Shown here: one piece after another, positions 34,930-42,409 of the stretch
How the letters are laid out: every line of letters starts with the position of its first letter
Position numbering within the stretch: the first letter of the stretch is position 1
NCBI RefSeq assembly: GCF_902498825.1
Contig: NZ_LR701459.1
Span: 3,602,564-3,666,563, forward strand
From: Rhizobium sp. EC-SD404
GTDB taxonomy: Bacteria; Pseudomonadota; Alphaproteobacteria; Rhizobiales; Rhizobiaceae
Reading direction: 5' to 3'
Length of the DNA: 64,000 bases
The notes under the pieces: model-generated
The model's input: only the letters and a program-made list of their open reading frames with translations
The model's database searches: none
What the model was told of the DNA's origin: nothing
Translations under genes and position numbers: made by a program

Positions 34930-35829
34930 CTATTTGGCCGTTTGTACCTGAACCTGCTCCAGTTCCTCTTCCGCCATCTGGGTGACGCGGAACGGGTGTG
35001 CCGGGTAAACCCCGAGAATCTTGATCTCGCGCGAGAAGAAGGCAAGTTCCTCAAGCGCGCGGGCGAGATTGTCGTCGTCCGGATGTCCCTGAACGTCGGC
35101 ATAGAACTGGCTGGCGAAGAACTTGCCGCCCAGCTGATAGCTCTCGAGCTTCGTCATGTTCACGCCGTTGGTCGCGAAACCGCCCATCGCCTTGTAGAGC
35201 GCGGCCGGCAGATTGCGCACCCGGAAGATGAACGTCGTCACCATCAGGTCGTTGCTCGACCCGCGAGGCGCCCATTGAGCCTCTCGGGAGAGCACGATGA
35301 ACCGGGTGACGTTGGTTTCGGTATCCTCGACATTCTCCGCGATGATCTTCAGTCCGTAGAGATCGGCTGCGAGCCTCGGTGCGAAGGCGGCCATGGTCGG
35401 GTCGCCGCGCTCAGCGACGAGCTTTGCCGCACCGGCCGTATCGCCGGCCACCACGGGCTTCCACTTGTTTTCGCGAACGATCCGCCGGCACTGGCCGAGC
35501 GCGTGGATGTGGCTATGGACCGTCTTGATATCGGCGATGTCGGCGTCGGGCAGGACCATCAGTTGAAAATGGATCGGCATGAAATATTCGCCGACGATGT
35601 GCAGCGCGGATTCCGGCAGGAGATGGTGGATATCCGCAACGCGCCCGGCGATCGTGTTTTCGATCGGGATCATGGCGAGGTCGGCCGTGCCCGCCTCCAC
35701 GGCAGCGAACGCATCTTCGAAAGTCGCGCAGGGCAGCGGCTCCATGTCGGGAAACATGTCGCGGCAGGCCATGTCGGAATTGGCGCCGAATTCGCCCTGG
35801 AAGGCGATTTTGCCGGTCATCTCGGTCAT
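34930..35829 (-). CDS. pheA: prephenate dehydratase
   Basis: A cytoplasmic enzyme of 299 residues that converts prephenate to phenylpyruvate in phenylalanine synthesis. The catalytic domain starts with IAFQGEFGANSDMA and contains MIPIENTIAGRV and the Thr-Arg-Phe triad in NVTRFIVLSR. The C-terminal ACT domain with ESYQLGGKFFASQFYADVQG gives phenylalanine feedback inhibition in this family. No chorismate mutase domain is fused. AAGGA lies just before the ATG at 35829, which is 12 bases after kdsB, so the two are probably one transcript. Confidence 0.96.
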   Translation of the reverse strand: MTEMTGKIAFQGEFGANSDMACRDMFPDMEPLPCATFEDAFAAVEAGTADLAMIPIENTIAGRVADIHHLLPESALHIVGEYFMPIHFQLMVLPDADIADIKTVHSHIHALGQCRRIVRENKWKPVVAGDTAGAAKLVAERGDPTMAAFAPRLAADLYGLKIIAENVEDTETNVTRFIVLSREAQWAPRGSSNDLMVTTFIFRVRNLPAALYKAMGGFATNGVNMTKLESYQLGGKFFASQFYADVQGHPDDDNLARALEELAFFSREIKILGVYPAHPFRVTQMAEEELEQVQVQTAK

Positions 35830-35841
35830 TGATTGTCCTTA

Positions 35842-36591
35842 TCAGTCCTTGGCGAGCAGACGCCGCGCCTTTGCAAGATCCGCCGGGGTGTCGACGCCGA
35901 GCGGGACCGTGTCGACGATCTCGACATCAATGCGCATCCCGGCTTCCAGCGCGCGCAGCTGCTCGAGCTTCTCGCGCAGTTCGAGGGGCGAAGGACCGAG
36001 CGCGACGAAACGGGTCAGCGCCTCGCGCCGATAGGCATAAAGCCCGACGTGATGATAGAGCGGGCCCTCGCCATGCGGTGCGGTCGCACGGGTGAAATAG
36101 AGTGCCCGAAGACGGTTGGGGGCGATCTCGGTGCCGACGACCTTTACCACATTCGGATTGGTGCGCTCATCGTCCTCGGTGATTTCGACGGCGAGCGTCG
36201 CGATGTCGACCGCTGGATCGTCGAGCGGACGGAGTGCAGCCGCAACACTCTGTGGATCGACGGTCGGCAGATCGCCCTGAAGATTGACGATGCGCTTGAT
36301 GCGACCCTCGGGATCGAGCGTCTGCAGCGCTTCGGCGATGCGATCGGAACCCGACTGATGTTGCGTGCCCGTCATGATGAAGCGAAACCCGGCGGCCTCA
36401 ACAGCCTCGCGCACGTCATCGGTGTCGGCGCAAACGGCAACAGGGCCGATCTTGGCTTCCATCGCCCGCATGGCAACCTGGACGATCATCGGCAGCCCAC
36501 CGATCGGCGCCAGCGGCTTTCCCGGCAAACGGGTGGAGGCCATTCTTGCCGGAATAAGCACGATCGTTTCGCGAGCTTCTTGTGTCGTCAT
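35842..36591 (-). CDS. kdsB: 3-deoxy-manno-octulosonate cytidylyltransferase
   Basis: A cytoplasmic enzyme of 249 residues that activates KDO as CMP-KDO for lipopolysaccharide core synthesis. The nucleotide-binding loop is [15 protein letters not shown] (residues 13-27). Other conserved parts are [25 protein letters not shown] and [11 protein letters not shown]. It is the first gene of the kdsB-pheA pair and diverges from the multi-heme cytochrome gene across 150 bases. GGGAA precedes the start codon. Confidence 0.97.
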
Positions 36592-36741: not shown

Positions 36742-38454
36742 ATGAACTCCTCCTATCTGAACATGGCCGCCGGCGCATTTCTCGGCACAGTTTTTGTCGT
36801 TATGTCGGTGTCGCTCGTGTCGGAGTCGTTGTTTCACGCCGAAGCGCCTGAACAAGAAGGCTTCGTTATCGAGGTCGCCGAGGCCGAGACGGGCGATGGC
36901 GGCGGTGCTCCGCAGGCGACGCCGATTGCAAACCTGCTGCAGACGGCCGATGCCGCTGCCGGCGAAGCATCCTTCGCCAAGTGCCAGGCTTGCCACACCG
37001 TCGACGAAGGTGGCGCGAACCGCGTCGGCCCGAACCTCTGGGGTGTCGTCAACCGTCCGATCGCCAGCCACGAAGGCTTCAGCTATTCGGCCGCAATGAC
37101 GGAGTTCTCCGAAGGCGGCGAAGTCGTCTGGGACTACGAACACCTTGCCGGCTTCCTTGCCGCACCGCGCAGCTACATCCAGGGCACGGCCATGAGCTTT
37201 GCCGGCCTGACGCGCGAAGACGAGCTTGCCAACGTCATTGCCTATTTGCGCGAACTTTCCAGCGAGCCGGCACCGTTGCCGGAGCCCGTCGAGGTTGCCG
37301 AAGCACCTGCCGAGGGCGCTGAAGGCGGCGAAGGCGAAGCAGCCGCTGCCGAAGGCAGCCCGGCGCTCGCGATGCTCGCCGATGCTGACGCCGCAAACGG
37401 CGAATCGATCTTCCGCCGCTGCGCCGCATGCCACGGCGTCGAAGAAGGTGGCGCCAACCGCGTCGGCCCGAACCTCTGGGACATCGTTGGCAACACGGTG
37501 GCCAACAATGAGGGCTTCTCCTATTCGTCCGGCATGGTCGAATACAGCGAAGGTGGCGCCAAGGTCTGGGAATTCGCCAATCTCGACGCCTTCATCCTCG
37601 CACCGCGCGAAGAAGTTCCGGGCACGTCGATGGGCTTTGCCGGTCTTCCAAACGATAGCGACCGCGCCGACCTCCTTGCCTATCTCGCAACGCTTTCCAG
37701 CGAGCCTGTAGAATTGCCGGCAGCTGGTGGCGAAGAAGCCGCCGCTCCCGCCGAAGGCGAGGCAGCACCGGCCGAAGGCGAAGAAGCACCTGCGGAAGAA
37801 GCCGCGCCTGCTGAGGGCGAAGCTCCTCCTGCTGAGGGCGAAGCTGCTCCTGCAGAAGATGAAGCAGCGCCGGCCGAGGACGCGGCACCCGCCGAAGAAG
37901 GTACCGCTCCCACCGAAGCACCTACGGACGCCGAGCCCACCGGCGATGGAGCAGCCGTTCCCGCCGAAGGCGAACCGGCCGACACCGACGCTGCCGCGCC
38001 TGCCGATGATGCGACCGAAGGCGACGAGGCTGCCCCTGCCGAAGGCGCAGCGCCTCCCGCGGACGAGGAAGCTTCGGCTGCTGCCGGTGGCGCTGTTGCA
38101 CTCATCGCTTCTGCTGATGTTGCTCTCGGCGAAGAAGTTTTCCAGGAATGCTCGGCCTGCCACACTGTAGATGAAGGCGGCGAAGCGCTTGTCGGTCCTA
38201 ATCTCTGGGGTGTCGTCAACCGTGACGTCGCCGGCGTCGAGGGGTTCGAATATTCCGAGAACTTCGTGGACTATGGTGGCGAAGGCGCTGTTTGGGACTA
38301 CGCCCTGCTCGACCAGTTCCTCGCTGCACCAATGGACGAAGTCGAAGGCACCTACATGGCCTATCCTGGGGTCGTCGAGGATGACCGTCGTGCGGCCGTG
38401 ATCGCCTATCTGCGCACGCTGGCCGAAACGCCTGCCGAACTTCCCGCCGAATAA
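36742..38454 (+). CDS. membrane-anchored triheme c-type cytochrome (three tandem CycM-like domains)
   Basis: A 570-residue protein. An uncleaved N-terminal membrane anchor (about residues 8-30) precedes three class I cytochrome c domains. Heme-binding CxxCH sites are CQACH (81-85), CAACH (227-231) and CSACH (470-474); likely axial methionines are Met151, Met297 and Met539, each in a GTxM context. Domains 1 and 2 are joined by about 40 residues. A highly acidic Ala/Pro/Glu linker of about 125 residues (roughly 331-455, PAEGE repeats) separates domain 3. Single-domain CycM carries electrons between the bc1 complex and aa3 oxidase in the periplasm. GGAG precedes the ATG at 36742. The gene stands alone with a terminator. 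Confidence 0.93.
37807..37845 (+). repeat. direct 21-base repeat in the cytochrome linker
   Basis: The 18-base sequence CCTGCTGAGGGCGAAGCT occurs at 37807-37824 and again at 37828-37845, a period of exactly seven codons. It lies inside the Ala/Pro/Glu linker and could expand or contract by slippage without shifting the frame. Confidence 0.85.
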
Positions 38455-38508: not shown

Positions 38509-38631
38509 ATTCAAGGCCACACCGTCAAGGCCAAAACCAAGCTTCGCTTCACGACCGCGTGACAGGGCCCAGCCTGTTCTTTGTCACAATTTTGCTTATT
38601 GTCGTGTGGTGCAACGCATGAGGAGACCTGC

Positions 38632-40512
38632 ATGATCGCAGCCTGTGGCAAGACTTCAAAGCAGCGCATCGCCGTCGCGGCACTCGGGGCCATCCTGATG
38701 CTGGCGAACGCCGCTTCCCCCGTCGTCGCACAGGAGGATGAGGCCCGGCAGTGGCGCCACGGCGCAGCCCTCATCGGCGATCCCAAATATCCGGCAGATT
38801 TCCCGCATTTCGAGTATGTGAACCCCGAGGCACCCAAGGGCGGAACGCTCCGCCTGTCGACCTCGGGTTCGTTCGACACCTTCAACCCGCTGCTGGCACG
38901 CGGCGAAGTGGCGACCGGGCTCAACCTCGTCTACGAAACGCTCATGGAGCGCTCCCAGGACGAGGCATCCGCCGAATACGGGCTGCTGGCCGAAGCGCTG
39001 AGCTATCCCGACGACTATTCCTCCGTCACCTTCCGGCTTCGCGAAGGCGCGCGCTGGCACGATGGCGAGCCGGTCACGCCGGAAGACGTGATCTGGAGCT
39101 TCGAGAAGGCGATCGAACTCGATCCGCAGCGGCAGTTCTACTACCAACACGTCACCGGGGCCGAAGCCACCGGTGAACGGGAGGTGACCTTCACCTTCGA
39201 CGAGGCGAACAATCGTGAATTGCCGCAGATCGTCGGACAGTTGCTCATCCTGCCGAAGCACTGGTGGGAAGGCGAAGGTCCCAAAGGACAACCGCGCGAC
39301 ATCGGCACAACCACGCTGGAGCCGCCGCTCGGTTCGGGCCCCTACCGGATCTCGGCCTTCAATCCCGGCGCCGACGTCACCTATGAGCGGGTCGAGGACT
39401 ATTGGGGCGCAGACGTTCCGGCGCGCGTCGGCACGAACAATTTCGACCGCATCAGCTACATCTATTTCGCCGATCGCAACGTTGAGTTCGAGGCCTTCAA
39501 GGCCGGCAATTTCGATTATTGGGTCGAGAACGCCGCCATTCGGTGGGAAACCGGCTATGATTTCCCCGCCGCCAATGACGGCCGCATCGTGCGCGAGGAA
39601 CTGGAAAACCCGTATCGCGCCTCCGGCCAGCTCGTCGGCTTCATTCCCAATCTGCGCCGCGAAAAGTTCCAGGACGAACGCGTGCGCCGCGCACTGAACT
39701 ACGCGTTCGATTTCGAAGAACTCAACCGCACGATCTTCTTCGGCGCCTATGAGCGGGTGGACAGCTATTTCTTCGGGACGGAACTGGCGTCTTCGGGCCT
39801 GCCGCAGGGCGAGGAGCTGGAAATTCTGGAAAGAGCCCGCGACCAAATCCCGGCGGAAGTGTTCGACACGGAATACACCAATCCCACCGGCGGAAATCCG
39901 CAGGCGCAACGCGAAAACCTACGCGAAGCCGTGCGGCTGTTTTCGGAAGCCGGCTATGAAATCCAGAACAACCGGATGGTCAATTCGGAGACCGGCGAAC
40001 CTTTCTCGTTCGAGATCATCCTCAACGGACCGACCATCGAGCGCGTCGCCCTGCCCTGGAGCGAGAACCTCCGCCGCATCGGCGTTGCCGTCAGCGTGCG
40101 CACGGTCGAGCCGTCGCAATATATCAACCGTATCCGCTCGCGCGACTTCGACGTGATCTATGCCGGCTGGGGCCAGTCCCTGTCGCCCGGCAACGAGCAG
40201 TGGGAATATTGGGGCGGACGGTCGGCCGACCGCGAAGGATCGCAGAATTTCGGCGGCATCGTCGATCCGGGAATCGATGCCCTGATCCGCGAAGTCGTCT
40301 TCGCAGACGACCGCGACACACTCATCGCGGCGACGCGGGCTCTCGACCGCGTCCTGCTCGCCCATGATTACGTCATCCCGACCTACACGGCGCGTGCTGC
40401 CCGCATCGCCTACTGGGACAAGTTCGCTCGGCCCGAGCTTTTGCCTGAATATTCGATCGGCTTCCCCGATGTCTGGTGGTCGAAAGACGCCGAAGGCGGC
40501 GATGAGGGCTGA
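38632..40512 (+). CDS. YejA-type ABC substrate-binding protein (family 5), first copy
   Basis: A 626-residue periplasmic binding protein. A Sec signal peptide ends near PVVAQED. Characteristic YejA-like stretches are WRHGAALIGDPKYPADFPHF, YVNPEAPKGGTLRLSTSGSF, FNPLLARGEVATG and WHDGEPVTPEDVIWSFEKAI. YejA-type proteins feed peptides, in some species antimicrobial peptides and microcin C, to YejBEF. AGGAG is six bases before the start. It is the first gene of a five-gene operon (two binding proteins, two permeases, fused ATPase) and overlaps the second binding-protein gene by 11 bases. Confidence 0.94.
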   Translation: MIAACGKTSKQRIAVAALGAILMLANAASPVVAQEDEARQWRHGAALIGDPKYPADFPHFEYVNPEAPKGGTLRLSTSGSFDTFNPLLARGEVATGLNLVYETLMERSQDEASAEYGLLAEALSYPDDYSSVTFRLREGARWHDGEPVTPEDVIWSFEKAIELDPQRQFYYQHVTGAEATGEREVTFTFDEANNRELPQIVGQLLILPKHWWEGEGPKGQPRDIGTTTLEPPLGSGPYRISAFNPGADVTYERVEDYWGADVPARVGTNNFDRISYIYFADRNVEFEAFKAGNFDYWVENAAIRWETGYDFPAANDGRIVREELENPYRASGQLVGFIPNLRREKFQDERVRRALNYAFDFEELNRTIFFGAYERVDSYFFGTELASSGLPQGEELEILERARDQIPAEVFDTEYTNPTGGNPQAQRENLREAVRLFSEAGYEIQNNRMVNSETGEPFSFEIILNGPTIERVALPWSENLRRIGVAVSVRTVEPSQYINRIRSRDFDVIYAGWGQSLSPGNEQWEYWGGRSADREGSQNFGGIVDPGIDALIREVVFADDRDTLIAATRALDRVLLAHDYVIPTYTARAARIAYWDKFARPELLPEYSIGFPDVWWSKDAEGGDEG

Positions 40513-42409
40513 GCCAATGCCCTCCCGTGACGGTCGGCACGCACTGAACCGGCGCCAGTTTCTCACGGGCGCCGCGGCGACGGCGGCCGCGCTGTCGCTG
40601 CCGATTTCGATCAGCGGCGCCTTTGCCGCCAATCCAACCGGCCAGCGGCTGCACGGGCTCTCCGCTTTCGGGGAGCTCAAATACGCAGCCGACTTTGCCC
40701 ATTTCGACTATGTGAACCCGCAGGCCCCGAAAGGCGGCCGGTTCCACACTGCCGTTGCCAACTGGCTCTACAACCAGAACCCACAGACCTTCAACACGCT
40801 GAATACATTCGTGCTCGCCGGCGATGCGCCACCGCGCATGACCATGTGCTTCGATACGTTGATGGTGTCGGCGCTCGATGAACCGGATGCTCTCTATTGC
40901 CACGCGGCCGAGTGGGTCGAGATTGCCGAAGACCGCAATTCGGTCCGTTTCGGCCTGCGCGACGGCATCCTGTTCCATGACGCGACACCGCTGACGGCAG
41001 GGGACGTTGCCTTCTCGCTGCAATTGATCAAGGAGAGCGGCCACCCCGACCTCTCGTCTGCACTTATGTCCATGGTCAGGGCCGAGGCGATCGACGATCG
41101 TACGGTGGAGGTCGGCTACGATGGCCAGCAATCCGGACGGGCCATCCTCGCGCTCACTTCCATCCCAATTCTGTCGCAGATCTATTATTCGGCTAACGAC
41201 TTCAATGCATCTTCGCTGCACGTGCCGGTTTCCTCCGGTCCATACAGGCCGAGCCGCGTCGAGTCGGGTCGCTTCATCGAATATGAGCGCGTTCCAGACT
41301 ACTGGGCGACGGACCTGCCGACCGGGAGGGGCCTTGCCAATTTCGACGTCATCCGGATCGAATTCTATGCGGAGCGCACGGCCGAATTCGAAGCCTTCAA
41401 GAAGGGCGACATTCATTTCCGCCAGGAATCGACCGCGCAGGTGTGGTCAACCGGCTATGAGTTTCCAGCCGTCACCGATGGCCGCGTGCTGAAACAGGAG
41501 TTTCCGCGCGAAACGCGCCCATCGATGCAGGCTTGGGCGCTGAACCAGCGGCGAGAGCCGTTCGACGATATCCGAGTGCGCGAGGCGGTTAGCCTCTGTT
41601 TCGATTTCGAGTGGACCAACGACAAGCTGTTTTACGGGGTCTACGCGCGCTCGCAGTCGCCCTTCGAGAACTCCGAGTTCAAGGCCGAAGGCCTGCCCAC
41701 GGGCGCGGAACTGGAATTGCTGAATGGCTTGAAGAGCCCTCTGCCTGACGGCGTTTTGGGCGAGCCACGGGTGGCGCCGCTCTCGGATGGCTCAGGCCGT
41801 GATCGAAGACTTCTGCAGCGCGCCGTCGAGCTTTTGCGCGAAGCAGGCTTTGCGCAGCAAGGCGGCCGGCTCTTGCGCGATGGTCGGCCCATCGCGCTGG
41901 AAATCCTTATCCAGGCGACGGTGTTCGAACGGCTTCATGCGGGCTTCATCCAGAACCTGCGCCGGATCGGCATCGATGCGTCGCTTCGGTTGGTCGATTC
42001 GGCGCAGTATACGGCGCGGACGAACGACTACGATTTCGACATGGTCATGATGGCCGTCCAGTTTTCAGCGACGCCGACGGCTGAATCCTTCGAGACCTTC
42101 GTTTCGACCCGCTCGGCCGATCCGAAAGGCATGCGCAATCTTCCGGGCGCCAAGGACGCAGTTTACGACGGGCTTCTCGACCACATGGAACGGGTGGAAA
42201 GCCGCGAAGAGCTGGTCACGGTCATGCGCGTGCTCGATCGGGTCTTGCGGGCGCGGCTCGACTGGATTCCAAACTGGTACTCGGCGAATCACCTCGTGGC
42301 CCATTGGGACATGTTCGGCTTCGTCGATCCGAAACCGGATTATGGCTGGCCGGTGGAACAGCTCTGGTGGTACGACCAGGAGAAGGCTCAGGCAATTGGC
42401 AGGACATAG
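40502..42409 (+). CDS. YejA-type ABC substrate-binding protein (family 5), second copy with Tat signal
   Basis: A 635-residue binding protein homologous to its upstream neighbour (GELKYAADFAHFDYVNPQAP, then PKGGRFH). Its N-terminus differs: NRRQFLTGAAATAAAL, with Arg17-Arg18, is a twin-arginine export motif, so it should be exported folded. Residues up to about 45 (AFAANP) are removed. Having two binding proteins for one channel suggests two ligand ranges. The start at 40502 overlaps the previous gene; Met at 40517 is an alternative and would still keep the Tat motif. Confidence 0.92.
   Translation: MRAEPMPSRDGRHALNRRQFLTGAAATAAALSLPISISGAFAANPTGQRLHGLSAFGELKYAADFAHFDYVNPQAPKGGRFHTAVANWLYNQNPQTFNTLNTFVLAGDAPPRMTMCFDTLMVSALDEPDALYCHAAEWVEIAEDRNSVRFGLRDGILFHDATPLTAGDVAFSLQLIKESGHPDLSSALMSMVRAEAIDDRTVEVGYDGQQSGRAILALTSIPILSQIYYSANDFNASSLHVPVSSGPYRPSRVESGRFIEYERVPDYWATDLPTGRGLANFDVIRIEFYAERTAEFEAFKKGDIHFRQESTAQVWSTGYEFPAVTDGRVLKQEFPRETRPSMQAWALNQRREPFDDIRVREAVSLCFDFEWTNDKLFYGVYARSQSPFENSEFKAEGLPTGAELELLNGLKSPLPDGVLGEPRVAPLSDGSGRDRRLLQRAVELLREAGFAQQGGRLLRDGRPIALEILIQATVFERLHAGFIQNLRRIGIDASLRLVDSAQYTARTNDYDFDMVMMAVQFSATPTAESFETFVSTRSADPKGMRNLPGAKDAVYDGLLDHMERVESREELVTVMRVLDRVLRARLDWIPNWYSANHLVAHWDMFGFVDPKPDYGWPVEQLWWYDQEKAQAIGRT

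Follow-up and report, generated by a model that had tools for sequence, protein, structure and literature searches.

The window, a stretch of 64,000 nucleotides from Rhizobium sp. EC-SD404, codes for a three-domain CycM-type cytochrome c (36742..38454, forward strand; 570 amino acids) that, in the reading we consider probable while well short of assured, would serve as a membrane-tethered shuttle from the bc1 complex to the oxidases, its multiplied heme domains working by tethered diffusion and domain 1 retaining the ancestral role. CycM is the rhizobial cytochrome that acts between bc1 and aa3. The Rhodobacter cytochrome cy has been described in such a role between bc1 and oxidase (PMC8361435; PMC7876108). 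On the strength of a divergently oriented kdsB neighbor and of its best fold match, PDB entry 3m97, which comprises the soluble part of Paracoccus c552 together with its linker, we call the window protein an orthologue of CycM, cytochrome cy, and c552. Since the characterized members possess a single heme domain and this protein has three, its sequence marks it as a multi-domain variant of the CycM group rather than a canonical CycM. It shares with those proteins a predicted N-terminal helix, a flexible tether, and a class I domain with CxxCH and Met, but differs from them in domain number, in its strongly acidic domains and linkers, and in the divergence of its third domain.

The kdsB gene (35842..36591, reverse strand), which adjoins pheA for prephenate dehydratase (34930..35829, reverse strand), lies 150 bp upstream of the cytochrome gene and on the opposite strand, and serves as a marker of the CycM locus across the order, taken from the window's named relatives to be Hyphomicrobiales, whose CycM relatives share this kdsB-adjacent location. 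Among the 157 genomes surveyed from the order, 135 have it next to the cytochrome gene, and in the other 22 it is not within the stretch examined; counting in the named records, all 146 kdsB-bearing loci carry it on the strand opposite to the cytochrome, and in 133 of these 146 it counts as upstream by a simple test. The NCBIfam model for cytochrome c-550 CycA (NF043008) scores the protein at 190.7 bits, under its curated cutoff of 240 bits. No regulatory RNA was detected at gathering scores between 34000 and 41000.

The single 570-residue frame has CxxCH motifs at residues 81, 227, and 470 and the methionines of GTxM motifs at 151, 297, and 539; frame, coordinates, and all six sites agreed exactly on recount with those given in the initial annotation. 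In a profile search, the Pfam Cytochrom_C model matched three stretches (97.7 bits summed), and among 2000 shuffled versions of the protein the CxxCH...GTxM pattern appeared in 0/2000, not even in one copy. Three times over, CxxCH and a downstream Met occur within a class I cytochrome c domain, with ligation predicted from the motifs, and the three domains are 51-56% identical to one another in pairwise comparison. All parts being on the forward strand, the chain begins with a membrane helix predicted by AlphaFold2 at residues 3-30 (36748..36831), in a region that can be aligned with the beginning of chain o in PDB 9fks and is conserved across the alignment of 25 sequences; this helix is a candidate for the uncleaved anchor typical of the CycM group. 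It is followed by an N-terminal tether recognized by composition and structure prediction (residues 31-65; 36832..36936; 7 acidic and 0 basic residues) and by domain 1 (D1; residues 66-176; 36937..37269; net charge -9), whose CxxCH occupies residues 81-85 (36982..36996), with Met151 (37192-37194) as presumed axial ligand. A 35-residue linker 1 (37270..37374; by composition 8 acidic and 0 basic residues) leads to domain 2 (D2; residues 212-322; 37375..37707; net charge -11), with CxxCH at residues 227-231 (37420..37434) and the presumed axial Met297 (37630-37632). Linker 2, which is A/E/P rich and spans 132 residues (37708..38103; 38 acidic and 0 basic), is encoded by DNA in which short tandem repeats of 21 bases lie at 37750-37853 and precedes domain 3 (D3; residues 455-562; 38104..38427; net charge -18), with CxxCH at residues 470-474 (38149..38163) and the presumed axial Met539 (38356-38358). 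From these motifs and predictions we infer that the protein carries covalently attached hemes and is anchored in the membrane. The initial description of a CycM-type protein with three domains, a predicted anchor, and one short and one long flexible linker is therefore supported.

The possibility that separate genes had been joined by a sequencing or assembly error, which the initial annotation had raised, is unlikely, because the same layout recurs in other genomes of the genus. All three domains are likewise encoded, at 92% identity, by orthologues in two genus-mates (G001 and G002), and the three-domain form is also found in Rhizobium albus NBRC 110149, which may be the same strain as G002 because the kdsB sequences of the two are identical. 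In raw codon counts, used here in place of a fitted dN/dS, the synonymous and non-synonymous differences are 23/1 in D1, 29/5 in D2, and 29/7 in D3 against G001, and 20/1, 30/9, and 32/5, respectively, against G002. For linker 2, there are 50 synonymous and 20 non-synonymous codon differences with 24 gap columns against G001 and 46 and 22 differences with 22 gap columns against G002. Given the few non-synonymous differences in each domain, all three domains look to have been kept by selection, and linker 2 appears to drift within the genus.

An AlphaFold2 run based on the alignment of 25 sequences gave a mean pLDDT of 72.8 and a pTM of 0.33 for the whole protein, with three folded domains (means of 10-residue blocks mostly 80-96), the helix at residues 3-30, and pLDDT below 50 at residues 31-58, 186-204, and, in pieces, 330-443. 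Both linkers are accordingly predicted to be disordered. Simple polymer formulas put the contour length of linker 2 at 502 A and estimate its rms end-to-end distance at 63-97 A, compared with 32-44 A for that of linker 1. The heme-free model contains no fixed arrangement of the domains (pTM 0.33), though transient packing could escape a model of this kind. As a heme wire needs hemes packed at fixed distances, within about 15 A, the molecular wire proposed initially is unsupported in the sense of a fixed chain, because the linkers are predicted to be disordered and no fixed packing is predicted.

How widely heme number varies was assessed from a locus search, in which 51/60 and 159/199 genomes of two overlapping sets had a match at E <= 1e-30, and from a census of 157 distinct genomes drawn up with genomes lacking such a match and some matched ones left out. 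The number of domains was taken as the larger of the count of profile domains and the count of CxxCH motifs, so that a motif without a clean profile match was also counted. In the census, CycM has one heme domain in 121 genomes, two in 29, three in 5, and four in 2, i.e., 36 of the 157 genomes have a CycM with two to four hemes, and 12 of the 42 families include multi-domain forms. Of the 37 genomes in the window's own family, 30 have one domain, 4 have two, and 3, all from the window's genus, have three. A set of 37 named loci, chosen by likeness to the query, comprises 32 with one domain, 4 with two, and 1 with three. A protein search recovered 1151 relatives among 7995 scored candidates, and the best 120 of these 1151 have two CxxCH motifs in 60 cases, three in 52, four in 5, and five in 3; this sample is biased, with single-domain proteins missing, because candidates were limited to 0.55-1.75 times the query length. 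Among the matches listed, proteins with two or three CxxCH motifs occur in Aurantimonas and Fulvimarina and proteins with three in Pelagibacterium and Methylopila; the multi-CxxCH relatives bear database names such as "cytochrome c2" or "c-type cytochrome." They are homologous, multi-domain CycM-like proteins, but they differ from the window protein in domain number and linkers, and in several of them the domains multiplied separately. The initial annotation had envisaged a database search for the three-domain layout and its taxonomic range, and had held that it would be refuted if most relatives already had this form. That objection applies by half: the layout was indeed found elsewhere and so is not unique to the window, but whereas multi-domain relatives are common, the three-domain form is rare at this locus, in 5/157 genomes. 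Among the titles and starts of abstracts listed from the open-licence literature, none belonged to a paper on a multi-domain CycM, which is weak evidence of absence. Two-domain cytochromes of this kind were also encountered outside the order, in Novosphingobium sp. SG919 (L011, 4989-5957) and Roseivivax jejudonensis (L036, 4629-6293), each with no kdsB in the stretch examined.

Several lines of evidence bear on how the domains multiplied. On a kdsB tree of 146 loci, at least 13 changes between single- and multi-domain states and 16 changes of domain count are required, the figure of 13 being a rough one because the tree is a quick, single-gene tree with 50 of its 140 inner branches open. In a tree of 137 individual domains, the domains of one protein cluster together in a number of cases, namely, all four in L076, three each in P0016, P0010, and P0023, and two each in L053, L083, and P0014. 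Taken together, these two results indicate that the heme domain has multiplied repeatedly, with extra domains apparently gained or lost on many occasions among related bacteria. In a group of two-domain proteins from Rhizobiaceae and allies (L065, L066, L069, L070, P0019, P0077, P0107, and P0108), however, the second domains make up a separate clade at a large distance from the first ones, so that some extra domains are not recent copies of the domain next to them. In the window protein, D1 groups with the first domains of Rhizobiaceae, and D2 groups with the second domains of Pararhizobium haloflavum, P0007, and P0009 (support 93.8, not starred), and thus the duplication that gave rise to D1 and D2 seems to be older than the genus. 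D3 sits on a long branch in the same tree. In AU tests on 92 of the 137 domains, with several multi-domain proteins excluded and nine divergent second domains placed outside the named set, neither a single clade of all the domains of the genus (p-AU 0.20) nor a clade of D3 with the named set of Rhizobiaceae-type domains (p-AU 0.68) was rejected. The latter constrained tree scored 18.6 log units above the free tree, and hence the quick free search had missed it.

We propose that the extra domains probably arose by duplication of a unit consisting of a domain and an A/E/P-rich tail. A C-terminal tail of at least 40 residues follows the domain in 41 of 111 single-domain CycMs, and these tails consist, at the median, to 93% of A, P, E, D, G, T, S, and Q, the same few letters as the linkers. 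A loose motif of one hydrophobic residue and proline after the domain is, in raw counts, present in 101/111 single, 39/41 inner, and 23/35 last domains. Linkers in other multi-domain proteins measure 29 to 213 residues, and the two-domain protein of P. haloflavum has a 193-residue linker after domain 1. Tails without a second heme domain reach 194 residues in one single-domain CycM (L060, 1480-2616) and 133 in another (L130, 1695-2807). The linker of one two-domain CycM (L086, 1498-2523, reverse strand) is strongly basic (13 basic and 1 acidic of 48 residues), the opposite of the acidic linkers of the window protein.

In the alignment, nine columns hold a basic residue in the majority of 111 single-domain relatives, and of these columns D1 keeps six, D2 five, and D3 three; their position near the heme was judged from the distance to CxxCH and Met in the sequence rather than on a structure. 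The six positions lost in D3, which correspond to residues 79, 80, 94, 143, 157, and 158 of D1, are occupied there by Q, E, L, M, V, and E and are basic in 77-88% of the 111 relatives. The three lost by D1 include position 162, which is basic in 98% of the relatives and is kept in D3. The net charge of D3 is -18, compared with +1 for the median single domain, and the partner domains in this genome are also acidic (CuA, -19; c1, -18), so that D3 would be repelled by them unless salt screens the charges or another partner is used. As D1 and D2 are acidic as well (-9 and -11), charge may in general matter less for docking in this genus. Compensation of charge by the partners is rejected: the charges of D1 and CuA vary in the same direction (rho 0.41, p = 0.03, n = 28; rho 0.56, n = 94), as do, at p = 0.07, those of D1 and c1 (0.34, n = 28), kinship being ignored in all of these figures, and there is accordingly no sign of compensation. 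Salt adaptation as the cause of the multiplication was likewise rejected, with no difference in kdsB charge between 35 multi-domain and 111 single-domain loci (p = 0.26) and no charge difference between the two in independent pairs on the kdsB tree. Because kdsB is cytoplasmic and hence a poor proxy, the charge of the CuA domain was used besides; it did not differ between 36 multi-domain and 58 single-domain genomes (p = 0.13), and the four supported independent pairs, all that were available, had no trend. Judged by eye, the multi-domain genomes of the window's family fall toward the acidic end; their values run from -4.7 to -9.8 per 100 residues and those of the single-domain genomes from 0 to -8.5. 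D1 is more acidic in multi-domain proteins when kinship is ignored (p = 4e-6 over the 146 loci and p = 3e-4 over the 94 genomes), a difference that was not borne out in the independent-pair test.

The genome possesses one bc1 c1 gene and three heme-copper oxidases, which by their frames are of the aa3 type, a second CuA type whose COX1 and COX3 parts share a single frame, and the cbb3 type. With bc1, two CuA-type oxidases, and cbb3 available, the usual partners of a CycM exist; a separate small cytochrome c is also encoded, and the tethered carrier need thus not be the sole one. The second CuA-type oxidase is an 878-residue frame (L005, 415-3051, reverse strand) whose COX3-like part was judged by eye, and its region holds a separate CuA-type subunit frame without CxxCH. 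Elsewhere in the genome, a frame of about 440 residues (L003, 457-1797) has WD40-like repeats, seen by eye, and after them a class I cytochrome c domain.

In the mechanism we favor, electrons would pass from bc1 to the cytochrome c oxidases via the membrane-tethered shuttle, with the ancestral role staying with D1 and with D2 and D3 supplying two further hemes on flexible, acidic leashes. As there is no fixed packing, electrons would have to move by collision, between one domain and another or between a domain and a partner, and the gain per anchor would lie in a larger electron capacity and a wider radius rather than in conduction along a fixed chain of hemes. Parallels are offered by other cytochromes. 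For cytochrome cy, the full linker is reported to be needed for fast transfer to the reaction center, with a shorter one sufficing for the oxidase (PMC7876108). PgcA of Geobacter sulfurreducens is described as having three monoheme domains that exchange electrons and are joined by flexible linkers, extending up to 180 A (PMC11520253), a layout that the window protein shares by prediction. PgcA, however, acts outside the cell on iron oxides and has PT-repeat linkers and one domain with His-His ligation (PMC11520253), whereas the window protein has A/E/P-rich linkers and a predicted N-terminal membrane helix. We therefore propose, by analogy, that it might work like PgcA without being a member of the PgcA type; no PgcA domain structure was among the best 60 of 103 PDB matches of the window protein. 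The c550 of Thermus thermophilus similarly belongs to the oxidase side of respiration and unites independent monoheme domains in a single chain; the likeness to CycM drawn here is one of layout, and c550 differs in having two domains and a partner in sulfite oxidation (PMC3561395). Its N-terminal domain alone is reported to take electrons from the donor, the two domains to equilibrate fast, and either to be able to hand electrons on, and its authors speak of a shuttle, not a wire (PMC3561395). By these analogies, tethered diffusion as in PgcA or a multi-electron shuttle as in c550 would fit the window protein better than a wire.

The alternatives to this tethered bc1-to-oxidase shuttle differ in what they ask of the extra domains. 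Were these to store electrons without adding reach, as has been proposed for Thermus c550, with D1 alone docking with bc1 and oxidase and the others equilibrating with it, one would understand why D1 is the most conserved domain in the genus (1 changed residue of its 111, against 5-9 in D2 and 5-7 in D3) and keeps the most conserved basic positions (6/9, against 5 and 3), and the feeding of Thermus c550 through its N-terminal domain only, with fast equilibration (PMC3561395), would be a precedent. Such a capacitor does not by itself explain a linker of 132 residues, linkers in other multi-domain proteins being 29 to 213 residues long, and both c550 domains can pass electrons on (PMC3561395); we regard it as rather unlikely. 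We give still less credence to near-neutral elaboration, in which a recombination-prone, A/E/P-rich tail would let domains be copied and lost with little gain as long as D1 works. The occurrence of multi-domain forms in 12/42 families, the low-complexity linker with its tandem repeats, and the two-domain state of the near relative P. haloflavum speak for it, but D2 and D3 retain CxxCH, Met, and the predicted fold, with few non-synonymous differences, and heme is costly.

A wire in which two hemes form a short relay and the third reaches far, serving a distant oxidase or reductase as initially suggested, appears quite improbable to us. The dimensions of the linkers (rms 63-97 A and contour 502 A for linker 2, against rms 32-44 A for linker 1) speak for it, and in PgcA, too, it is the third domain that is described as specialized (PMC11520253). 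Against this, a fixed packing is not predicted (pTM 0.33), and the claim that the third domain reaches an oxidase is weakened by its retention of 3/9 basic positions, as opposed to six in D1 and five in D2, by its net charge of -18 in the face of acidic CuA and c1 partners, and by the drift of linker 2 within the genus (22-24 gap columns), the 193-residue linker of P. haloflavum following domain 1 instead.

Beyond the tethered shuttle of the window, we tentatively put forward a broader reading, about which we are more doubtful than hopeful, that the heme number of CycM evolves freely in Hyphomicrobiales. The starting point would be an anchored carrier with one heme and a disordered tail left dangling, from which repeated copying of the heme domain might have produced, within the aerobic respiratory chain, tethered-diffusion relays with two to four hemes, and in some cases five. 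These would be the respiratory counterpart of PgcA, and their late domains could have specialized in partners that differ from the customary acidic docking sites. The one- to four-heme forms constitute a natural series of apparently one respiratory carrier, mostly at one locus, in which close relatives differ in domain number. This series allows a direct test of whether several tethered hemes speed electron flow between complexes or only store electrons; work on this question has so far dealt with individual proteins, e.g., PgcA and linker variants of cytochrome cy. Downstream of the cytochrome gene, the window contains two consecutive genes for peptide-type solute-binding proteins (both PF00496) and then two permease genes (38626-42409), in an order that we take to resemble that of yej-type transporters.
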